From positions 1 through 64,000 of the forward strand of contig VGLK01000001.1 in NCBI GenBank assembly GCA_016866755.1: a DNA stretch of 64,000 nt, read 5' to 3'. Made by a program: the position numbers and the translations under genes. Shown piece after piece: positions 9,401 through 64,000 of the stretch; position 1 is the stretch's first letter, and the number at the start of each line of letters is the position of its first letter. The notes under the pieces are model-generated. The model ran no database searches. It was not told where the DNA came from and saw nothing but the letters and a program-made list of their open reading frames with translations. This DNA is from Candidatus Saccharimonadota bacterium (GTDB lineage: Bacteria; Patescibacteriota; Saccharimonadia; Saccharimonadales; Saccharimonadaceae).

Positions 9401-9688
9401 ATGAGTAAAACTACGAAACAGCGAGCTACGCATAGGGTAAAGATTATAGAAGGTCAATTCAAAGGCTTGAACAAGATGATTGAAGAAGATGCTTACTGCA
9501 TGGAAATCTTAACCCAAAGCTTAGCCCTGCAGAAGTCACTAGCATCTTTAAGCAAGCTTGTTGTCGAGCATCATATCCATACTCACATTCAGAACGCACT
9601 AAAGTCAGATGACACGGTACAGCAGGAGAAAGCACTACTGGAGCTGTCGCAACTATATGAACTAAGCAACGTAAGGGGTAAAATATGA
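9401..9688 (+). CDS. CsoR/RcnR-family metal-sensing repressor
   Basis: This is an all-helical DUF156 protein of 95 residues: HRVKIIEGQFKGLNKMIEED, then AYCMEILTQ and the HHIHTHI motif. Aligning by eye, Cys33 matches CsoR Cys36, His58 matches His61, and His62 replaces Cys65. The ligand set is thus Cys-His-His, as in RcnR, rather than the copper-type Cys-His-Cys. It should repress its own operon through the operator at 9374-9388. It overlaps the ATPase gene (ATGA), so both are co-translated. The family is certain; the sensed metal (Cu, Ni/Co or other) is open. Confidence 0.92.
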   Translation: MSKTTKQRATHRVKIIEGQFKGLNKMIEEDAYCMEILTQSLALQKSLASLSKLVVEHHIHTHIQNALKSDDTVQQEKALLELSQLYELSNVRGKI

Positions 9689-11820
9689 TCCATAACTCTC
9701 ATCGTCACCATCACCAAGAAACTGCAGACAATTCGAACGATACTCCAGAGGTTGACGCAAAATACGCCTGTCCAATGCACCCGGAGGTCACATCAGATAA
9801 ACCGGGCAAGTGCCCAAAATGCCACATGGCACTTGAGAAAACGAAGAAAGTTCATGACGGCCACGACAAACACGCCGGCCACTCTCCGAACATGTTCAAG
9901 CAAAAGTTTTGGTTAAGTCTTCTGTTTACTATTCCAACGCTGCTTTTTTCGCATACAATACAGGAATGGCTTGGGTTTGAACTCCGATTTTCCGGTAGCG
10001 AATATATACCTGCCATACTCGGTACGATTATCTTCCTGTATGGTGGTCTTATATTCATAAAAAGTGCGCGCGGAGAATTGGCCGCAAGGCAGCCGGGTAT
10101 GATGACGCTTATATCAATGGCGATTACTGTGGCGTTTGTTTACAGCGCGCTCGTGACATTTAATTTCGTCAGTGGTATGGATTTCTGGTGGGAGCTTGCG
10201 ACCTTAGTTACAATCATGCTACTTGGCCATTGGCTCGAGATGGCGTCGGTTGAAAATGCACAAGGCGCACTCAATGAGCTAGCAAAACTTTTGCCAGATG
10301 TAGCCGAACTAATCGAAAATGGGGAAAGCCGCACTATTAAAGTCAGCGAGCTAAGTGTTGGGGATACAATTCTAGTTCGTCCTGGTGCTCAGGTTCCAGT
10401 GGACGGAAAGGTGATTAAGGGTGAATCTGAAGTCAATGAGTCGATGCTTACTGGCGAATCGAAGCCTGTCAAAAAAATAATCAACAGCGCTGTCATTGGC
10501 GGCACGATTAATAATAGCGGTGCTCTTACTATCGAAGTGACGAAGATCGGTAGTGATACTGCGCTAGCTGGAATTATGAAGCTCGTTGAAGAAGCCCAAA
10601 CTAGTAAATCAAATACACAAATCCTCGCAGACAAGGCAGCGTATTACTTAACGTTTATAGCACTAGGTGCAGCGCTTCTGACTTGGATAGGCTGGTGGGT
10701 TGCTGGAGCAGAAGCGGGCTTTATACTAGAGCGTGTAGTTACTGTACTAATTATTGCCTGTCCGCATGCGCTAGGCTTAGCCATCCCTCTTGTGACGGCC
10801 ATTTCGACTACAAAGGCTGCTAAAAACGGATTGTTAGTGAGGGAGCGAATGGCGCTAGAGTCTGCACGTAATATCGATGTAGTACTGTTTGACAAGACTG
10901 GCACACTCACAAAGGGTGAGCAAGGTGTGGTAGATGTAGTTAGTGAGAACAAGACGAAACTGCTTTCAATTGCAGGCGCTCTCGAGGATGAATCTGAACA
11001 CCCAATCGCAAAAGCTATCGTTCGCCATGTCACAGATAATAACGTCACAAAAGCTCATGCTACGAAATTCTCGGCCATGTCAGGTCGCGGCGTGACAGCA
11101 ATAATTAAAGGAAAGACTGCTTATGCCGGCGGTCCGCGCATGCTCGAGGAGCTGCAAGTTTCACTCGATGAAAAATTGCAAAAAGCTACCTACGCCGCGT
11201 CAAAAGAGGGCAAGACAGTGATCTATATCATCGAAGAAAGCACAGTTATCGGTGCAATCATGCTGGCGGACGTCATACGTGAAGAGTCGAAAGAGGCCGT
11301 GACAAAACTTCACGAATCCGGCAAACGCGTCGCCATGCTGACGGGAGACAGTAAGGGCGTTGCCGCCTGGGTAGCTGGTGAGCTCGGAATTAAAGAATAC
11401 TTCGCTGAAGTTTTACCAGAGAATAAAGCTGAGACCGTAAAGAACCTACAAGCCGATGGTAGCAGAGTAGCCATGATCGGCGACGGCGTTAACGATGCGC
11501 CAGCGCTGGTACAAGCAAATATAGGTATTGCTATCGGTGCAGGCACAGACGTAGCTATTGAATCTGCCGGCATAGTCTTAGCCAGTAGTGATCCGCGCGG
11601 CGTGTCTAAAATAATCATACTCTCAAAAGCTACCTATCGTAAAATGGTTCAGAACCTCGCCTGGGCAACCGGCTATAACGCACTAGCGATTCCGCTAGCT
11701 GCCGGCGTCGCCGCACCACTTGGTTTTGTGCTATCGCCAGCTCTAGGAGCTGTACTAATGTCGCTCTCTACGATTATTGTCGCAATAAACGCACAATTCT
11801 TGAGGCGAATAAACCTGTAA
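9685..11820 (+). CDS. P1B-type heavy-metal ATPase, CPH (CopB) type
   Basis: The 711-residue pump has a His-rich start (SHRHHHQE), a Cys-rich metal-binding domain (ACPMHPEV ... GKCPKCHMAL, residues about 28-52), then membrane helices and the cytosolic P-type core. Key motifs are present: TGES, the transmembrane metal motif CPH (ACPHALGLAIP), the phosphorylated Asp in DKTGTLT, the SEHPIAKAI nucleotide-binding motif, and GDGVNDAPAL. The CPH motif and absence of CxxC HMA domains place it with CopB/P1B-3 pumps (Cu(II), Cu(I) or Ag(I) export) rather than CPC-type CopA. It is co-operonic with the CsoR-like regulator. Confidence 0.93.
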   Translation: MIHNSHRHHHQETADNSNDTPEVDAKYACPMHPEVTSDKPGKCPKCHMALEKTKKVHDGHDKHAGHSPNMFKQKFWLSLLFTIPTLLFSHTIQEWLGFELRFSGSEYIPAILGTIIFLYGGLIFIKSARGELAARQPGMMTLISMAITVAFVYSALVTFNFVSGMDFWWELATLVTIMLLGHWLEMASVENAQGALNELAKLLPDVAELIENGESRTIKVSELSVGDTILVRPGAQVPVDGKVIKGESEVNESMLTGESKPVKKIINSAVIGGTINNSGALTIEVTKIGSDTALAGIMKLVEEAQTSKSNTQILADKAAYYLTFIALGAALLTWIGWWVAGAEAGFILERVVTVLIIACPHALGLAIPLVTAISTTKAAKNGLLVRERMALESARNIDVVLFDKTGTLTKGEQGVVDVVSENKTKLLSIAGALEDESEHPIAKAIVRHVTDNNVTKAHATKFSAMSGRGVTAIIKGKTAYAGGPRMLEELQVSLDEKLQKATYAASKEGKTVIYIIEESTVIGAIMLADVIREESKEAVTKLHESGKRVAMLTGDSKGVAAWVAGELGIKEYFAEVLPENKAETVKNLQADGSRVAMIGDGVNDAPALVQANIGIAIGAGTDVAIESAGIVLASSDPRGVSKIIILSKATYRKMVQNLAWATGYNALAIPLAAGVAAPLGFVLSPALGAVLMSLSTIIVAINAQFLRRINL

Positions 11821-13279: not shown

Positions 13280-13636
13280 GTGATAAAAAAGTACACCGCC
13301 TATATAACCGTAATTACTGCAGCTCTATCTCTAGTGTTTGCGTACGTTCAACCCGTTATGGCAAGTACATCTTCGCATAGCTCAACACACTCTACGCATA
13401 TAAGTGATAGTACCTGCCAGACAGCCTGCTCTATGACCGTCAATAAGCACAAAGATAAGCTACGAAAAGATGTGAAAAATAAGAAAGCTCCCCAGCCACT
13501 CTATGTACATCTGAATAATGTATCGATTCAAAGTCTGGGTAACGGAATCTACCCGCCTAATCAAGTGTGGATACAAAGTAGCTGGGTGCCGCCTGATATT
13601 GTTCTTTTAAGCGGCTACCATTCCTCGGGTCTGTAG
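13280..13636 (+). CDS. Small secreted Ser/His-rich protein, 118 aa
   Basis: The GTG at 13280 lies 9 nt after an extended -10 (TGG-TATAAT, 13265-13270), so the transcript is nearly leaderless. A signal peptide (about residues 1-28, ending VMA) precedes a Ser/His stretch (SSHSSTHSTHISDSTC) with two cysteines (CQTAC). The rest is basic, then Trp/Pro-containing. The His/Cys cluster and its place before a DUF305 gene suggest metal binding outside the membrane. Family not recognised. Confidence 0.6.
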   Translation: MIKKYTAYITVITAALSLVFAYVQPVMASTSSHSSTHSTHISDSTCQTACSMTVNKHKDKLRKDVKNKKAPQPLYVHLNNVSIQSLGNGIYPPNQVWIQSSWVPPDIVLLSGYHSSGL

Positions 13637-13680: not shown

Positions 13681-14376
13681 ATGAAGCGAAATCAAGTTAT
13701 TATTATAATTGTTGGATTTATTATTATTGCTGGAGTGGCATGGATATTAGTTGCCAACAGTCAAACAAACGATAGTGTGGAGCAGCAGTCGTCATCAGCT
13801 ACGCCAGACGAACAGGAAGCAAAACCAGTAGATGATAATAAGTTTGCGACTCTAACAGGATCGGCGTTTGACGAGGCCTACATTGCAGACATGATGGCGC
13901 ATCATGAAGGGGCTGTTAACATGGGTGAACAGGCCTTGAGTGCATCTGAACGTCCAGAAGTTAAAGCACTAGCAAACGAAATCGTGTTTACTCAGTCACG
14001 AGAGATGGCAAAAATGAGTGAATGGCAACAAGAGTGGGGCTTTGATGCGACAATGGGCGCACACGGTAGTCATGGGGGCGGCGCAAACGATATGGCTGGC
14101 GAAATGATGGATATGGGCGCTTCTCTCAACGGTCTTAAGGGCGACGATTTTGACAAAGTATTTCTCGAACAGATGATCATTCACCATCAGCAAGCCGTAG
14201 ATATGTCAAAGTATGCTGACACGAACGCAGAGAGGCAAGAGATCAAAGATCTTGCACGTGCGGTCATAGAAGCTCAAGAGAAAGAAATCTCCCAAATGAA
14301 GCAATGGCAAAAAGACTGGGGTTTTCAGGCAGCAGATATGGACGCAAATTCATCTATGCCTGGTATGAATCACTAA
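13681..14376 (+). CDS. Membrane-anchored DUF305 (CopM-like) protein
   Basis: ATG 13681 follows AAAGGAAA. After one N-terminal transmembrane helix and an acidic linker come two DUF305 four-helix units. Each has the hallmark Met/His motif: DMMAHHEGAVNMG (about residues 70-82) and QMIIHHQQAVDMS (about 165-177). A His/Gly/Met-rich connector lies between them (GAHGSHGGG). Proteins of this type, such as cyanobacterial CopM, bind copper outside the cytoplasm. It follows the secreted His-rich gene by 44 nt and precedes the electron-transfer operon. Confidence 0.88.
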   Translation: MKRNQVIIIIVGFIIIAGVAWILVANSQTNDSVEQQSSSATPDEQEAKPVDDNKFATLTGSAFDEAYIADMMAHHEGAVNMGEQALSASERPEVKALANEIVFTQSREMAKMSEWQQEWGFDATMGAHGSHGGGANDMAGEMMDMGASLNGLKGDDFDKVFLEQMIIHHQQAVDMSKYADTNAERQEIKDLARAVIEAQEKEISQMKQWQKDWGFQAADMDANSSMPGMNH

Positions 14377-14404: not shown

Positions 14405-14444
14405 TATACCTCGGCACACTCGCTACTAGTTGTGCCGAGGTATA
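14405..14444 (+). terminator. 14-bp perfect hairpin after DUF305 gene
   Basis: Arms 14405-14418 and 14431-14444 (TATACCTCGGCACA and complement) enclose a 12-nt loop, 29 nt past the DUF305 stop and 38 nt before the FMN operon start. No U-run follows. It may terminate, attenuate or protect mRNA ends. Confidence 0.55.
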
Positions 14445-14482: not shown

Positions 14483-14938
14483 ATGCAGTCAAAAAATAAG
14501 GTTAATCCAACGGTCGCTGTAATTATCGCAATCGCTTTAATTGCTTCGATAGCCGTAGCGATAGCGCTCTTTTCGAATTCGAGTGAGAGGCAGCAAACAT
14601 CGCCGACCACATCGACTCAAGGGGCTGAGCCACAGACGGCCACCTATGCGAATGGTACCTACGAAGCCACAGGAGAATACGTATCGCCTGGCGGCAGGGA
14701 GTCGATTGACGTTTCGGTGACGGTAATGAACGGCAAAATTACCGACACGACAATCACGCCGAATGCTGATTCTGGCGAGGCAGAAGAATACCAACAACGA
14801 TTCGCCGCTAGCTACAAAGACATGGTGGTCGGTAAATCTATCGACGAAGTATCTTTGACGCGTGTTGCTGGGTCGTCATTGACTGGAATTGGTTTTAACG
14901 ACGCGCTCGAGCAAATAAAAGAAGATGCTGCCGCATAG
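14483..14938 (+). CDS. Membrane-anchored FMN-binding domain protein
   Basis: ATG 14483 (CAGGAG, 7-nt spacing) is preferred over the TTG at 14465. The 151-residue product has an N-terminal anchor (about residues 9-30), a Ser/Thr linker and an FMN_bind domain (about 55-148) with the typical YEATGEYVSPGG opening and GKITDTTITP strand. The C-terminal motif AGSSLTGIGFNDAL (129-142) matches the flavinylation site SGA[S/T]; Ser132 is the likely covalent FMN-phosphate acceptor. ApbE is encoded next with a 14-nt overlap. It would carry electrons on the outer face. Fold and motif are seen; flavinylation is inferred. Confidence 0.85.
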   Translation: MQSKNKVNPTVAVIIAIALIASIAVAIALFSNSSERQQTSPTTSTQGAEPQTATYANGTYEATGEYVSPGGRESIDVSVTVMNGKITDTTITPNADSGEAEEYQQRFAASYKDMVVGKSIDEVSLTRVAGSSLTGIGFNDALEQIKEDAAA

Positions 14939-15782
14939 CATTGATTTTGAGGCAATTGGTACAAAATGGCGAATAGAATCCCTCGTGCCGCTGCCTCGAA
15001 GTATCATACGGCAAATATATCGACGAATCGAAACATTCGATGCAACGTATTCGCGTTTTCGAGCCGATTCGCTGGTGAGCGAAATTTCTCAAAAAGCTGG
15101 TAACTACACCTTTTCTGACGATATACTTCCGCTTATGCGTTTGTACCAAAAGTTATACGAATGTACCGACGGTAAGGTGACGCCATTGATCGGCAATGCG
15201 CTTGAGCGAGCCGGCTACGACGCTGAGTATTCTTTCGTCGAGCGAGAACAGAAGGTGCTGCCATCACTAGGTAACGTCCTAAAGTTGGACGGCCCAACAA
15301 TACGAACGAGCCAGCCAGTGATCCTAGACTTCGGTGCCGCGGGCAAAGGATACTTGATTGACATAATAGCGACTATCCTTGACGAAGAAGATGTCACTGA
15401 ATACGTGATCGATGGAAGCGGTGATATGCGTCACCGCGGGACGGCAATAAATAAAGTAGGGCTGGAACATCCGCTACGAAATGATATCGTCATAGGCGCT
15501 ATTGATGTACAGAACACTAGTTTGTGTGCGTCGGCGTCGAATAAACGAACTTGGGGTAGGGGTGTGCACCATATTTTCGATCCAACCACGCTTCGTCCAA
15601 CGAACGATATTCTTGCTACGTGGGTCATAGCACAAGAAGCGCTACATGCCGACGGGCTCGCTACTGCATTGTTTTTCGTTGATCCTAAAAAGCTCGAGAA
15701 TGATTTTTCGTTTCAGCACGTGCGCATGTTCAAAGATGCATCGCTCGAGTATTCGCATAATTTCACAGGAGAAATATTTTAA
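14925..15782 (+). CDS. apbE: ApbE-type FAD:protein FMN transferase
   Basis: The 285-residue protein has the ApbE landmarks: TYSRFRADS near residue 40, the FAD/Mg-binding LDFGAAGKGYLID (about 143-155), VIDGSGDM, the conserved HHIFDPTT, and a C-terminal ADGLATALF with the metal-binding Asp. It attaches FMN from FAD to Ser/Thr of target proteins. No signal peptide or lipobox is visible, whereas many ApbEs are exported; either it acts inside or the target is modified before export. It overlaps both neighbours, forming one translationally coupled three-gene unit. Confidence 0.9.
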   Translation: MLPHSIDFEAIGTKWRIESLVPLPRSIIRQIYRRIETFDATYSRFRADSLVSEISQKAGNYTFSDDILPLMRLYQKLYECTDGKVTPLIGNALERAGYDAEYSFVEREQKVLPSLGNVLKLDGPTIRTSQPVILDFGAAGKGYLIDIIATILDEEDVTEYVIDGSGDMRHRGTAINKVGLEHPLRNDIVIGAIDVQNTSLCASASNKRTWGRGVHHIFDPTTLRPTNDILATWVIAQEALHADGLATALFFVDPKKLENDFSFQHVRMFKDASLEYSHNFTGEIF

Positions 15783-17290
15783 TGTTTTTGCAGAATTTAG
15801 TCGATCGGCATCTACGTGCTATTTCAATGTATAGAATCGTTTCGATTGCATTGTTGCTGCTACTCGCGAACGCCTTCGTGTTATCATTATTCGGGCAAAT
15901 CGCTTTTTCACCTTGGCAAATTACTGCTAGCGCGATCGTTCTGATTCTTGCGACTACAGTATCAAGCCGCTTGTTCGCGAGTATCATGCGCACACACGCA
16001 CATTCTGAATCCGCGTTCATAACGGCGCTTATACTTTTCTTTATTGTTTCGCCGACAAGCAGTCCAGAAGGGCTCTTTACATTAGTATTCATCGGCGTAA
16101 TTGCTTCGGCCTCAAAATATCTTTTAGCGTACAAGGGCCGGCATATCTTTAATCCAGCTGCCATTGCCGCCGTGCTCGTGGGCATAAGTGGGCTGGCGTC
16201 GATTAGCTGGTGGGTGGCAACGCCGTCGCTCATTATCCTGACGGCAGTCTTGAGCTTACTTATTCTTTATAAAACGCACCGATTCCACCTTGGCCTTCTT
16301 TTTATTGCACTTACCGCGCTGCCTATTCTTCTTGTTTTGCTAGCAGAAGGCTTGCCGGCCTCTCAGGCGATTCTTGCCCTGGCGGCTTGGCCGATTCTGT
16401 TTTTCATTGGCTTTATGCTCACCGAGCCACTGACATTGCCTGCCAAAAAGTGGCAATTGTACGTAGAAGTGGCTTTAGTCGCACTGCTTTTCGCGCAACC
16501 TATTCTGATGAATGGCTTCAGCGTACCGCCAGCATTGGCGTTGGTGATAGGTAATTTGTTTGCCTTCATAGTACATCCTCGACGATCCATCGAACTACGA
16601 TTAGTCAAAAAGAATACGCTCACTCCTACGACTGATGAATTTGTCTTTGCGCCAAAAACTCCTGTCAATTTTGAGCCAGGCCAGTACATGGAAATCATGC
16701 TGCCGCACAAGGCTACCGACAGCCGTGGGTTGCGGCGTACGTTTAGTATATCGTCTGCACCTATGGATGATACTATTACGTTTGGCGTAAAGTTTTATGA
16801 ACCGTCCAGCAGTTTCAAGAAAGCGCTTCGTGCGCTGCCGGTAGGCTCAGTCGTAAAAGGCTCGAACATTGCCGGTGATTTCACATTGCCCGACAACACG
16901 GATGAGCGATTACTATTCGTAGCTGGCGGTATCGGCATTACGCCGTTTATGAGTCACCTACAATCCTTGCGCGCTAAAGGTGAAACCCGTGATATCATAC
17001 TACTCTATGCAGTAAACGACGCATCGGAAATAGCCTATGCGGACACTTTGAAAGAAAGCCAAGCAAAGATTTTTATACTGACGAAGTCGGGGTTGCCTAA
17101 AGAGTGCCATGTAGGCGAACATATCAGCGGATCGCTGGTCACAAAAGAAATTCTGGCTCAATTAGCGCCAGACATATCGTCTCGCTGGGTGTACATATCC
17201 GGCCCGCCCGTCATGGTAGCAAGCGCCAAGAAAGACGCCACACGTTTGGGTGCAAAGAAAATCAAGACGGATTATTTTACGGGATACTGA
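15782..17290 (+). CDS. NqrB/RnfD-like membrane domain fused to FAD/NAD(P)H reductase (FNR)
   Basis: This 502-residue fusion starts in the ApbE stop. Residues 1-262 contain about ten membrane helices with NqrB/RnfD signatures: SESAFITALILFF, ASKYLLAYKGRHIFNPAA and FMLTEPLTLP. Residues about 265-502 form a ferredoxin-reductase module: FAD motif RRTFSISS, pyridine-nucleotide motif GGIGITPF, VYISGPP and C-terminal FTGY. I do not see the covalent-FMN SGAT loop of true NqrB/RnfD in the membrane part. The design would pass electrons from cytosolic NAD(P)H through FAD across the membrane to the flavinylated partner. The final acceptor is unknown. Confidence 0.88.
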   Translation: MFLQNLVDRHLRAISMYRIVSIALLLLLANAFVLSLFGQIAFSPWQITASAIVLILATTVSSRLFASIMRTHAHSESAFITALILFFIVSPTSSPEGLFTLVFIGVIASASKYLLAYKGRHIFNPAAIAAVLVGISGLASISWWVATPSLIILTAVLSLLILYKTHRFHLGLLFIALTALPILLVLLAEGLPASQAILALAAWPILFFIGFMLTEPLTLPAKKWQLYVEVALVALLFAQPILMNGFSVPPALALVIGNLFAFIVHPRRSIELRLVKKNTLTPTTDEFVFAPKTPVNFEPGQYMEIMLPHKATDSRGLRRTFSISSAPMDDTITFGVKFYEPSSSFKKALRALPVGSVVKGSNIAGDFTLPDNTDERLLFVAGGIGITPFMSHLQSLRAKGETRDIILLYAVNDASEIAYADTLKESQAKIFILTKSGLPKECHVGEHISGSLVTKEILAQLAPDISSRWVYISGPPVMVASAKKDATRLGAKKIKTDYFTGY

Positions 17291-59324: not shown

Positions 59325-60503
59325 CTAGTCGAGAGAGACGCCGCGTTCTTTTAGAAACGCAACAGGATCGATGAACGCATTCTCGTCGTTCGGATCCTTC
59401 GTTATCATGAAGTGCAGGTGCGGGCCACTTGATCCACCAGTGCTACCAACGTAGCCAATCACGTCTCCGGCTTTAACCTCGCCGCCTTCAACGATGCCGT
59501 CAGCTCGGCTTTGCTGGTGGGCGTAGCCGGACAAAATGTCGCCGCCGTGATCGATGTAGGTGACGTAACCACCCCACGCTGGATTGAACTCGTCGCGCAG
59601 GAGTGCCACAACGCCATCGGCAATGGCGTAAATTGGTTCGCCGCCAGCTGTTGGGTAGGCGAAATCGGCACCGTTATGTAGCATGTTGCCCCGACCAAGG
59701 GGGTCGTTGCGCCAACCAAACTCTGAAAGGTACTGATAACCTTCATCGAGCGGTGACTGCCATTCGTCGGCAATTTGGCGCTGAACCTTGCTGTCTCGCT
59801 CGCAGCGATCAAGCATTGATTCAACCTTTTCCATGGCGGTTGTCGATCCACTAGGCTCTTCCTCTTGCGAGGAATTGGCCAAAATATCACGAGCAACTGC
59901 CTCACGCTGAGCTGGCTCCCAGTGGGCGCCGTACGCAGCCGGATCAGGTTTTTGCACTTGTAGGGCAGTTTCAAGTAGTGGTAAACCTTCACGACCAGGA
60001 ACGATGTCGAGCTCGTCGTAAAACCGGTTAATTGAATACACCGGATTCATAATTTGCTCGGCCGTACCCCAATGTGGTTGACCGTCACCGCCCATAACGC
60101 CGGGGCGTTGCTGGTAGATACCAAGACTGTCACGATCGCCATAGCTGAGGTTTAGCAGGTTAGATTCCTGCATCGCCACTGCGAGAGCAAGCGTGATGTC
60201 GTAGTCGCTGTGACCACGTTCGTACCCAATGCCGATAATGAGTTCGGCATTTTTGCGTTGCTCGTTGTCGTCTCGTCCGAACTGCTGATCGTAGGCGGCG
60301 AAATAGCTTTCGGCTGTATCGCCGTCACCGAGATTGACACCAATTGGATTTGAAATCGAACCCAGCGCTTCGCAGTTGCCAGCGTTTTCGATGCTTTGCT
60401 GTGTAAGGGCAATGAATCCCAAAACTACAGCTACCACACCAACAAAGACGAATACAAGGAGGCCGACGAGGCAGCCTCCGGTTTTTCTAACCATACTGCT
60501 CAT
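59325..60503 (-). CDS. T4SS-associated lytic transglycosylase with M23 peptidase domain
   Basis: From ATG 60503 (AGGGGG upstream) the protein has a membrane anchor (about residues 8-34), a transglycosylase-like helical domain (about 85-210, AVAMQESNLLNL with the likely catalytic Glu, then SLGIYQQRPG) and a C-terminal LytM/M23 peptidase (about 265-385) with HNGADF and HLHF zinc motifs. It would open the wall for the secretion channel, combining glycosidic and peptide cleavage. It is the last gene of the leftward operon. Confidence 0.87.
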   Translation of the reverse strand: MSSMVRKTGGCLVGLLVFVFVGVVAVVLGFIALTQQSIENAGNCEALGSISNPIGVNLGDGDTAESYFAAYDQQFGRDDNEQRKNAELIIGIGYERGHSDYDITLALAVAMQESNLLNLSYGDRDSLGIYQQRPGVMGGDGQPHWGTAEQIMNPVYSINRFYDELDIVPGREGLPLLETALQVQKPDPAAYGAHWEPAQREAVARDILANSSQEEEPSGSTTAMEKVESMLDRCERDSKVQRQIADEWQSPLDEGYQYLSEFGWRNDPLGRGNMLHNGADFAYPTAGGEPIYAIADGVVALLRDEFNPAWGGYVTYIDHGGDILSGYAHQQSRADGIVEGGEVKAGDVIGYVGSTGGSSGPHLHFMITKDPNDENAFIDPVAFLKERGVSLD

Positions 60504-60527
60504 CGTGTGCACCCCCTCTAGGTGTCA

Positions 60528-61121
60528 TTAGTCAAACGGATAGGTTTGGCTATCAATGCGCCATTGGCCGTCTGCTTGAACCCACACGGTTGAAAGTGTT
60601 GGTGCAGTGAAACCGCTGACGAAAGTGTCACCATCGTATTTCTCGATGATGACGCCTGCGATCGATACGAAACGTACCGAATCGTCTCTGTTGGCCGGTT
60701 CCGATAGAATCATCGGGCGCGGTTCTTCGTGACGATTGAGAACTTTTGCGTACAGGGTTGAATCCGTAGGGATCGATGGATTGGCCTCGCGGAAGGTTGG
60801 CGTACTGATGTTGCCGATTAGCTGCTCGCGCAGCTGCGGGTCTTCAGTGTGCCACGCCTCCATAAAGTCAAGAATCCGCAGCTCAAACTCGCTGATCGGC
60901 TGACGCGTTGGACTCTCGCGAGGCGTGGGTGCAGGTGATGAGGTGGCTGGTGATGGTGCGCTAGATACGTCGCTGACAATCGGAGGAGCCTCGAGTGCCA
61001 GAGAAGACGAATCCTCCCGGCGCTCGAGCACTCCCCAGATAGCTGCAACAATCAGCCCCACGATCACCACACCCAGCACTACCTGCGAAAATTTTACTTC
61101 TCGTAGTAGTTGCTTGAGCAT
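60528..61121 (-). CDS. Membrane-anchored T4SS operon protein, VirB8-like position
   Basis: The protein has a short cytosolic start, one membrane helix (about residues 14-34), a Ser/Pro-rich linker and a compact external domain of about 120 residues (FELRILDFMEAWHTEDPQL ... TVWVQADGQWRIDSQTY) reminiscent of NTF2-like/VirB8 periplasmic folds. GAGAGGAG precedes ATG 61121, which overlaps the upstream stop (TGATG). The VirB8-like role is inferred from topology and operon position. Confidence 0.7.
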   Translation of the reverse strand: MLKQLLREVKFSQVVLGVVIVGLIVAAIWGVLERREDSSSLALEAPPIVSDVSSAPSPATSSPAPTPRESPTRQPISEFELRILDFMEAWHTEDPQLREQLIGNISTPTFREANPSIPTDSTLYAKVLNRHEEPRPMILSEPANRDDSVRFVSIAGVIIEKYDGDTFVSGFTAPTLSTVWVQADGQWRIDSQTYPFD

Positions 61122-62620
61122 CAAAAACTCCTCTCGGGATTATAATCGAGCCCGTTCGTCTGGGCGTAGCGCTGCAAATCCTCGGTATTGAATACATCGG
61201 GACGGTTGAGTATGCGCTCGGTTGCCGCATTGCTCTTGATGACCTCGAAATCCATTGGCGTCGCCATGATTTTAACGAAACTCACCGGCTCGCTCTCGCC
61301 AAGCTTAATGGCGAAAACGTGCGGCGGGAGCTTTGCGATCATGCTCAACTCCGTTTCCGAAAAGTCGTAGCGCGCCTTCAGGTCGCTCAATACCTCGGGG
61401 TCGTTACCCTGACTGCCAATAAAGACAAAGCCAAGGTTGTTGATGATGGTGTTACCAAGGTTATAGAGATGACTACCCACCGCGCCCGGCCGAATACTTG
61501 CCAGACGGTGGGTGGCCGAGAGGTTCATGGTGTGAACCCCACGGGCAATCTCGCTGAAGTAGGAGTGGCTCTCGGCGTAGACACGGTTGGTCATGGCCTT
61601 GTGCTTCTCGTCGTCCAGCTCGATGTGCGGCAACAAATCAACGCGGTTCGTCTCGATGGCCGACATTTTGACGCGGGTGTCGATGATCCGCATCAGTGTC
61701 TCAGCCTCGGGAAGAATTCCACGCCAATCTTTGGTAATAACTCGCTGCGTCAACATCTCATAGAGCGAGTGCCGATCGCCGAACATGCCACCGTAGGCTC
61801 CATACAGAACGCGACCAAGCATGGCCGCAACCTGATCGCCAGCCGCCTGGATATCCTGCACGTTGTAATTGTCAGGAGTTTCCACGAGGTTAGTGATCTG
61901 ATTCTTCAGGCCGGATGAACGCCCCTCAAGCACCTTAGCGCGCGAACTGAGCTGGCGGCCCAGATCGTTGTCAAGGCGATTGTGGTATCCGCGAATGAGG
62001 TCATCGGGCAGACTGCGAAGTAACTTGTGGAACGTGTGCGGTGTCCAGAAGACTTCTTCCAGTTGCAGCATCATGTACATTGCGATGCGTAGCGCTGTGC
62101 CGTGGTGACCACGCAGCGACTCGGAGTCGTTGCCGAATTCACACAGCGTTTGCGCCATTTCTACCATGCCGATGGCATGTACACGGTCATCGTCACCTAT
62201 GAACAACCGCTTCTCGAGCGGATTGACCTGCATGCGTGCCATCTCGAAAACGGTACTGTGCATGACTCGCGACAGCGCGCCATATTCGCTTTCCGCCCCT
62301 TCGGGCTTGTAGTCATTAGTGGCAACTCGTGCAGACTCGTAGCCTGCCGACAACAGCATCAGTCGCAGAGCTACCATTTTCATGGTAGCCGACTTGCCGG
62401 CGTCTTTGTGGCCGAGCACCAAACCGAAGGTGGAATGAATAATCCCCATCTCCTTAAGGAGCCACGGATCGAAGAAGAACGGCCGCCGCGAAAAGATATC
62501 CACGCCGAGTGGTATACCGCCAAAACGAGTTCGCGCCGGTACATGGAACGGGTGTCCCATAACCATGTCACGGGTAGTGTTGGCGAACACCGAAGCATTG
62601 ATGGGGGTAGTGATACCCAT
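61121..62620 (-). CDS. VirB4-family T4SS ATPase, C-terminal half
   Basis: The 499-residue ATPase carries Walker A GHKDAGKS (residues 70-77) and RecA-like features (ELDDEKHKAM as a candidate Walker B region, FIGSQGNDPEVL toward the C-terminus), preceded by the VirB4-like GIPLGVDIFSRRPFFFDP. VirB4 powers pilus assembly and substrate transfer. The usual N-terminal domain is encoded separately just upstream. ATG 62620 with AAGGTG is preferred over GTG 62629. Confidence 0.85.
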   Translation of the reverse strand: MGITTPINASVFANTTRDMVMGHPFHVPARTRFGGIPLGVDIFSRRPFFFDPWLLKEMGIIHSTFGLVLGHKDAGKSATMKMVALRLMLLSAGYESARVATNDYKPEGAESEYGALSRVMHSTVFEMARMQVNPLEKRLFIGDDDRVHAIGMVEMAQTLCEFGNDSESLRGHHGTALRIAMYMMLQLEEVFWTPHTFHKLLRSLPDDLIRGYHNRLDNDLGRQLSSRAKVLEGRSSGLKNQITNLVETPDNYNVQDIQAAGDQVAAMLGRVLYGAYGGMFGDRHSLYEMLTQRVITKDWRGILPEAETLMRIIDTRVKMSAIETNRVDLLPHIELDDEKHKAMTNRVYAESHSYFSEIARGVHTMNLSATHRLASIRPGAVGSHLYNLGNTIINNLGFVFIGSQGNDPEVLSDLKARYDFSETELSMIAKLPPHVFAIKLGESEPVSFVKIMATPMDFEVIKSNAATERILNRPDVFNTEDLQRYAQTNGLDYNPERSF

Positions 62621-62629
62621 GGTTCTCAC

Positions 62630-62828
62630 CTTGCTTTCATTTATGATAACGGATGTTAAATTGCAGGGTGCGGATACGCCGCATAGTAGGGCGTTTATCT
62701 ACGACACCCCAGATAAAACTACAGGTATAATAGGTTTAGCTGGAATGTAGTGTGCTTTTCTCTCTGGGTGCGTAGCCGTACGGCCTTGCACCCAGAGAGA
62801 GTTAGCATCACCTCCTATCTCAACAATT
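62630..62828 (-). promoter_or_regulatory. Hairpin-containing gap inside the split virB4 region
   Basis: A 12-bp stem CTCTCTGGGTGC (62760-62771) with its complement (62788-62799) lies between the two VirB4 half genes, followed on the minus strand by an AT-rich stretch with a possible -10 (TATTAT) before the C-terminal gene. It may partially terminate and restart transcription, setting different levels of the two halves. Confidence 0.5.
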
Positions 62829-64000
62829 CTAGAGACGATTGATACCGAGACAACCCGAAATTGCTGCAGCAATTTGACGGCTCCCTCCCGTGATGACTTC
62901 GGCATGAAAGCCGGCGCCAATAAGGGAGGCTCGAAGCTGCTTGCGCTGCCGGAGCAGGATACTCTCAGCTTCGGTGATATCGCCCCGTAGCGGGACGACG
63001 ACCGTGTGCAGTTGATTGTAGTGCTGGCCGATCGTTTGTCGTGAGACGAGATCGGTTCGCTCTGCAAGGTCTCGTTCGCGTCGCTGGCGCTTCGGGTTGT
63101 GAACGCGAGCACTGCCGTAAAACGCATCGTTGAAGTTCGCCATCATTCCTTGGGCAAACAGCAACTGGTGTGTTTCGGCGTTGCCAGACACCGCTTGACC
63201 AACCATGGCTTGACGTGTCCATACGCCGGGCTTAGGAAGATCGTGCAGTAGCCGGTAGTGCTCTGCGCTAACTGTCTCCGGTAGCTGGACAATTCGCATC
63301 ACGGAGATCAGGTTGTTGTCGAGCTGCACGTAGTGGTGCTCGGTGTTAACCTTGATGATTCGCTCTGGCCACGTTTTGAGCGCGGCGTCTAATCCATCGG
63401 CACCTGTTTCCTTCCAGATGGCATCAAGTTCCTCGTTGGAGCGAGGAATGATACCTTCGGCCTGTCTGGTGTAGTAATCTTGAATGCCAGCGACATCCCA
63501 GCCAGTGCGACACACTGTTGAATGCTCTGCCAGGCTGAGACTGCGAACGTTGCGCATGTCGAGCGTGCCACTGGAAGAAAGTTCTTCTACCAGCGTGCGT
63601 CCCAGTTCGGCAATCGGCAGCTCATGTAGCTGCTTGTCGCTGAGTTGACCATTTATCGCCCGCCGCCAGGCGGAGGAGCGTTTGATGGTGAGGATGATGA
63701 GGTACCACGGTGAAGCGGCACCAGCATTGTCCAGCATGGGTTGCAATTGCTCGGCGTATCTAGCCAACCACTTGGCCCGTTCGTAGCTTTCCGCCGATCC
63801 AACGAAAAGATCGGGGTGAAGCACGATTGGGTCGATATTTTTCCGCAAGTAGCCGTTCAGTTCCGCCAGATTGTTTGGTCCGGTGACACGAATAAGCGAC
63901 AGGCCTACGGAAAGGTTGGTCGTCTGAGCGATGATCCGGTCAAGGATTTCACCCAGCGTGTTAACGACGTCGTGCTGGCTTGCTCCCTTGTTGAAGAACG
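62829..64000 (-). CDS. VirB4 N-terminal-domain-like protein (partial, 5' end off window)
   Basis: The frame is open to the right edge, beyond the TTG at 63848. Visible residues include ILDRIIAQTTNLSVGLSL, RKNIDPIVLHPDLFVGSAE, VNTEHHYVQLDNNLISV and a C-terminal THQLLFAQGMMANF...GDITEAESILLRQRK. This resembles the CagE/TrbE/VirB N-terminal domain that precedes the ATPase core. It ends at 62829 without a Walker A motif, so VirB4 is split into two polypeptides here. Codons are more GC-rich than in the core. Confidence 0.75.
   Translation of the reverse strand, partial: FFNKGASQHDVVNTLGEILDRIIAQTTNLSVGLSLIRVTGPNNLAELNGYLRKNIDPIVLHPDLFVGSAESYERAKWLARYAEQLQPMLDNAGAASPWYLIILTIKRSSAWRRAINGQLSDKQLHELPIAELGRTLVEELSSSGTLDMRNVRSLSLAEHSTVCRTGWDVAGIQDYYTRQAEGIIPRSNEELDAIWKETGADGLDAALKTWPERIIKVNTEHHYVQLDNNLISVMRIVQLPETVSAEHYRLLHDLPKPGVWTRQAMVGQAVSGNAETHQLLFAQGMMANFNDAFYGSARVHNPKRQRRERDLAERTDLVSRQTIGQHYNQLHTVVVPLRGDITEAESILLRQRKQLRASLIGAGFHAEVITGGSRQIAAAISGCLGINRL

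Follow-up and report, generated by a model that had tools for sequence, protein, structure and literature searches.

Does a compact set of three overlapping genes in a Saccharibacterial genome represent a new kind of electron export system and, if not, what is it and which acceptor does it serve? The genes lie in the window, a stretch of 64,000 nucleotides of contig VGLK01000001.1 that was analysed as a whole. They are called F, T and M here, in the order of transcription. An earlier note, made from the sequence of this DNA, had seen in them the best candidate for an undescribed system. This claim has to be dropped, since that architecture had been published in 2021, with a model following in 2024 (PMC8238504, PMC11334425). 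The published description agrees with the operon feature by feature, ruling out an undescribed system, and the operon belongs to the published NQR/RNF-like systems. The reading favoured here, given a probability of roughly 0.8, is that F, T and M form an NQR/RNF-like flavin electron exporter, with a metal ion as its most likely acceptor and with FMN attached to the carrier before export.

The operon and its genome

The three open reading frames are all on the + strand and together occupy positions 14483–17290, as seen in the list of open reading frames and the sequence itself. F and T overlap by 14 nt and T and M by 1 nt, and the ATG start of F is preceded by GGAG. The genes that follow downstream in the window are T4SS pilin-like and on the opposite strand. 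The genome comprises 848 kb in 7 contigs, is scored as 99.8% complete and 0.01% contaminated, and carries the operon on a contig of 308 kb. The GC content of the operon is that of its surroundings. The two ends of the window, 1–2000 and 60001–64000, have a GC content of 54–58%, compared to approximately 45% elsewhere in the window.

The gene identities proposed in the earlier note, an FMN_bind protein, an ApbE and an RnfD/NqrB-reductase fusion, are confirmed by Pfam, orthologue, profile and fold matches. Flavin and nucleotide motifs, the absence of which had been named as evidence against the proposal, are conserved in the alignments. No match to PF02508 (NqrD/E, RnfA/E), PF13375 (RnfC_N), PF03116 or PF04205 was found anywhere in the genome. 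The statement that the rest of Rnf and Nqr is missing therefore stands for PF02508 and RnfC_N and extends no further than these families.

F, a predicted flavin carrier

F (14483–14938, + strand, 151 aa) is a membrane-anchored FMN_bind protein, predicted to carry flavin on the outer face of the membrane. It has an N-terminal hydrophobic anchor, a Ser/Thr-rich linker and an FMN_bind domain. The sequence from the window is below the threshold of the Pfam FMN_bind model (PF04205), which is matched by 17 of 27 F orthologues (best 5.7e-13), and the F profile matches the FMN-binding-domain structure 8p2a at 1.3e-9. Predicted topology places an N-terminal hydrophobic membrane segment in all CPR-side F proteins (72/72).

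The flavinylation motif that had been reported is present as AGSS-LT at 14867–14884 (+ strand), with Ser132 (codon 14876–14878) as the predicted acceptor. The acceptor place is Ser or Thr in 109 of the 111 F proteins. AGSS is the commonest form of the motif, in 40/111, while SGAT is found in 28/111. Two Microbacteriaceae loci (L037 and L044) have two tandem FMN_bind genes ahead of the ApbE and reductase genes.

T, an ApbE without a signal peptide

T (14925–15782, + strand, 285 aa) is an FAD:protein FMN transferase of the ApbE family (PF02424, 1.8e-39), the profile of which matches solved FMN transferases, and is the sole ApbE found in the genome. The protein has no signal peptide; its N-terminus is the ApbE domain itself (MLPHSIDFEAIGTKW), in place of the signal of a secreted lipoprotein. 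When a simple N-terminal hydrophobicity criterion was applied across the family, none of 39 Actinomycete ApbEs and only 5 of 65 from the CPR side passed. By eye, four of these five appear to be domain strands or over-extended starts. Periplasmic ApbEs are normally lipoproteins, although cytosolic ones are known (PMC12052999). A cytosolic ApbE with a substrate outside the cell is therefore in need of explanation. Since the ApbEs are signal-less and F is outside, the simplest reading suggests that FMN is attached to F in the cytosol, before export.

M, a membrane reductase fusion

M (15782–17290, + strand, 502 aa) is a fusion of two domains, and the structure prediction that had been proposed for it has now been made, giving an AlphaFold model with a pLDDT of 93.8. 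Residues 268–502 (16583–17287, + strand) form an FAD- and NAD(P)H-binding reductase domain of the ferredoxin-NADP-reductase type, as identified by both Pfam and fold searches. It matches NAD_binding_1 (PF00175) at 9e-10, above the gathering score, with fold Z scores of 27.1 to 4eh1 and approximately 25 to NqrF.

Residues 1–265 (15782–16576, + strand) are an RnfD/NqrB-type membrane domain. The M of the window is below the threshold of the Pfam NQR2_RnfD_RnfE model (PF03116), which 23 of 30 M orthologues match (best 4.6e-16), and the membrane-domain profile matches solved RnfD at 1.7e-6 and NqrB at approximately 4e-4. Because the fold search with the whole of M returned reductase-type matches, the membrane domain was modelled separately, with a pLDDT of 95.4. 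The 15 best fold matches of this model are all RnfD or NqrB (Z 19–23), with RnfD at Z 22.8 and NqrB at Z 19–21, followed by urea transporters at Z 12. NqrB residues 210–271, which include the flavinylated Thr236, align to only about 14 residues of the M profile, and the membrane domain is therefore without the flavinylation loop and covalent flavin site of NqrB.

Some 17 CPR genomes have a protein of approximately 254–323 aa with a weak match to this membrane domain (e.g. G202:C8:33139-33849 and G401:C2:42139-42882). Most of these have no room for a reductase domain, and they are possibly a separate RnfD-like protein.

Relation to known systems

In 2021 NQR/RNF-like systems were described, with Actinobacteria and the candidate phyla radiation named as carriers (Meheust et al., eLife, PMC8238504), and a Ktedonobacter example has since been modelled, with its missing flavinylation site noted (Huang et al. 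2024, mSystems, PMC11334425). They are thus known from Actinobacteria, CPR and Ktedonobacter. As in the window, one protein combines an N-terminal NqrB/RnfD membrane domain with a C-terminal PF00175 reductase, a membrane-anchored FMN-binding partner and an ApbE are in the cluster (F adjoins, upstream), and the membrane subunit has no flavinylation site. The architecture is identical. The differences are that the window proteins escape PF03116 and PF04205, that the motif is AGSS rather than [S/T]GA[S/T], and that copper genes adjoin the operon. The literature searched yielded no bench work on complexes of this type.

Rnf and Na+-Nqr share with the operon an RnfD/NqrB-type membrane domain, an NqrF-type FAD/NAD domain, an RnfG/NqrC-like FMN carrier and maturation by ApbE. 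The window has one fused reductase and one carrier where these complexes have a full set of subunits, and the covalent flavin loop of NqrB is missing in M, which would presumably make this a one-way path and not a redox pump. In the Listeria-type extracellular electron transfer system (PplA/FmnB), a surface-anchored flavoprotein, likewise flavinylated by an ApbE-family enzyme, sends electrons outward. The transferase of Listeria is secreted, whereas T has no export signal. The electron donor in Listeria is a separate NADH dehydrogenase working with quinone, whereas in the window M itself would connect NAD(P)H to the outside. The MsrQ-like flavinylation clusters of Actinobacteria (Meheust et al. 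2021) also combine an FMN-binding protein, an ApbE and a membrane electron carrier; however, the membrane carrier there is a haem protein from the ferric-reductase-like family and their ApbEs branch far from those of the window type.

The survey of 2021 defined NQR/RNF-like systems by PF03116 and PF00175 and retained only flavinylation genes bearing a signal (PMC8238504). Members like that of the window are likely to have been missed for this reason and, because F and M escape the Pfam models of their families, the published counts are probably too low. Pfam-based surveys overlook divergent members: this genome scores zero for PF03116 and PF04205 despite an intact operon. Two results go beyond the published work that was found, namely that the Actinomycete copies form one clade among Saccharimonad copies and that signal-less ApbEs accompany an outside substrate. 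Specialists could find interest in how far the prevalence is under-counted, in flavinylation that apparently precedes export, and in the exchange with Actinomycetes.

Electron path, direction and acceptor

The minimal chain from NAD(P)H to an outside flavin that the earlier note had proposed is supported by the features of the three proteins. Homology and the published models point to the following probable cofactors, electron path and direction. In the cytosol, the reductase domain of M would take hydride from NAD(P)H onto FAD, from which electrons would pass to a flavin bound non-covalently in the RnfD-like membrane domain. They would then move to the covalent FMN on Ser132 of F, attached by T, at the outer face, where F would reduce an acceptor outside the cell. 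Electron flow would be outward only, since the second half-circuit of Rnf and Nqr is missing.

An alternative is that the operon is a miniature energy-conserving pump, in which M, like Rnf and Nqr, uses electron flow to drive Na+ or H+ out of the cell. The membrane domain of M is clearly of the RnfD/NqrB type, as such a pump would have. Against this, the genome search found no member of the other Rnf/Nqr membrane subunit family (PF02508), M has no covalent flavin loop, and the published reading of NQR/RNF-like systems is of one-way electron transfer, making a pump very improbable.

The exporter would most likely deliver its electrons to a metal ion, Fe, Mn or Cu, which is reduced so that it can be transported. 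NRAMP and VIT proteins transport reduced metal ions. The gene directly downstream of the operon is NRAMP at five loci, spread over three lineages, and VIT1 at two others, and a VIT gene lies within the cluster on a Mesorhizobium plasmid. Six of the NQR/RNF-like clusters in the 2021 survey contain VIT1 (PMC8238504). Extracytosolic metal reduction is favoured as the role because NRAMP or VIT1 is sometimes directly downstream elsewhere, which is evidence from gene neighbours only.

The same electron path could instead serve redox balance, with surplus NADH discharged onto extracellular oxygen, minerals, quinones or a host surface and independently of metal transport. Such an outlet could benefit a fermenting cell, since neither COX1 nor any other of the searched Rnf/Nqr families was found in the genome, and at most F-T-M loci there is no metal transporter directly downstream. 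That NRAMP or VIT1 repeatedly adjoins the operon in separate lineages speaks against it. Redox balance as the purpose is a serious possibility, but less probable than not.

Copper genes beside the operon

The earlier note had placed the operon in a metal-resistance region, and this setting is real: genes for a Cad transporter, an ArsR-type regulator, a CsoR-type repressor, a copper-type P-type ATPase and DUF305/CopM are found at 5.3–14.4 kb. The CsoR-type metal repressor and the copper-type P-type ATPase, identified by family models, are at 9401–11820 (+ strand). The DUF305/CopM-type protein is at 13681–14376 (+ strand; PF03713, 1.2e-52, with the CopM model above cut-off). Between DUF305 and F there is a hairpin with 13-bp arms (14405–14444). 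In the relative L150 the arm sequences differ and are still largely complementary, and the hairpin probably separates two transcription units, one with DUF305 and one with F.

The position of DUF305 just upstream of F raises the alternative that the operon is part of the copper island, where F would reduce outside Cu(II) or keep copper-binding proteins reduced, together with DUF305/CopM and the copper ATPase. In the relative G054 the genes for CHAP, a small Cys protein, DUF305, F and T are in the same order, with 86–96% protein identity, on a contig that ends inside T. G054 is close kin, however, and does not give strong independent support. A reductase in such a place would not be odd, since three other relatives have a YHS-FNR-type reductase fusion beside a copper ATPase. 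Among the other loci surveyed, DUF305 is near none and CsoR near one, and the hairpin stands between DUF305 and F, so that a copper island function is unlikely. As a general rule the copper link is ruled out by these neighbour counts, and in the window it is unproven. Of the association with metal genes that had been noted, the adjacency in the window stands; the functional tie to copper is weak, the arrangement recurring in one close relative only. Raw neighbour counts also place P-type ATPases of mixed types near 16 loci and two-component genes near about 22.

Two further components of Saccharimonad copper islands were seen. A small protein that looks secreted and has a conserved CxxxC stretch, but matches no Pfam family above cut-off, adjoins DUF305 in several islands (window 13280–13636; L151:9429-9806, L152:8775-9152 and L154:10299-10673). 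In three islands a fusion of a His-rich YHS domain with an FAD/NAD(P)H reductase lies between the copper ATPase and a small Cys-containing protein (L151:9846-10778, L152:9192-10139 and L153:8195-9109, all on the - strand), and is a candidate copper reductase.

Distribution and exchange with Actinomycetes

The survey of CPR genomes that the earlier note had proposed shows the F-T-M order to be common, with loci beyond the Saccharibacteria. Full-length M is present in approximately 36 of 151 genomes of the order, including that of the window, and approximately 61 of 380 genomes sampled from the phylum, about one sixth, match its membrane domain strongly. The F-T-M order is kept at 96 of 116 loci from CPR, Actinomycetes and Ktedonobacteria. 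A scan of named genomes found M in Arthrobacter, Agreia, Microbacterium, Nakamurella and others, in many CPR lineages and in Ktedonobacteria. F-T-M is thus a common redox part in bacteria that are usually called purely fermentative.

Trees were made for M, for ApbE with outgroups, and for M and ApbE joined. The Actinomycete copies form one clade (SH-aLRT 98–100), setting aside one unrelated Actinomycetota MAG copy and the plasmid copies. In all three trees this clade is inside a Saccharimonad set that includes the window (SH-aLRT 97–99). Since most of the Actinomycete records are from named strains, contamination is no explanation for the clade. Grouping all 26 Saccharimonad copies of the window type together without the Actinomycetes is rejected by the AU test (p = 2.7e-8), while keeping the nearest 13 Saccharimonad rows together is not rejected (p = 0.146); neither test settles where the root lies. 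The outgroup-rooted ApbE tree, in which the outgroups are long-branched and not one group, favours transfer into Actinomycetes.

Several Actinomycete copies match the M of the window, at approximately 40–43%, as well as most Saccharibacterial ones do, as might be expected if the operon were assembly contamination from an Actinobacterium. This is extremely improbable given the 308-kb contig, the completeness and contamination scores, and an operon GC like that of its surroundings. It is in practice ruled out by the gene block shared with G054 and by the trees, in which the closest M and T are both from the Saccharimonad relative G064. Candidatus Saccharibacteria bacterium L065 is also among the closest kin of the window in the M tree. 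The CPR origin is supported by the same shared block and by homologues across the order.

Oral Saccharibacteria live on Actinobacteria hosts (PMC7507113), making exchange between Saccharibacteria and Actinomycetes plausible, and the trees provide a concrete case of it. A tentative scenario, with chances somewhat short of even, is that the module diversified in Saccharibacteria and other CPR and was passed to Actinomycetes, among which there are known hosts of Saccharibacteria, with FMN being loaded in the cytosol by the signal-less ApbE before export, so that no export of FAD would be needed. If true, an epibiont lineage would have supplied a respiratory-type component to the group of its hosts, which would be unusual. 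Cultured Actinomycete genera carry the module (e.g. Arthrobacter, Agreia and Microbacterium), and its function is therefore testable without a culture of Saccharibacteria.

Carriage of M on plasmids looks rare, with only two records in PLSDB that cover at least 80% of the protein. The M on the Mesorhizobium plasmid is named 'RnfABCDGE type electron transport complex subunit D' by NCBI. The 19-kb plasmid pDR48-1 of Pseudomonas sp. DR48 (L159) has Arthrobacter-like T and M, although the record may be misassigned or a contaminant. An Agrobacterium plasmid (L158:3983-4885) carries an Actinomycete-type ApbE of the family of T, with no M beside it.
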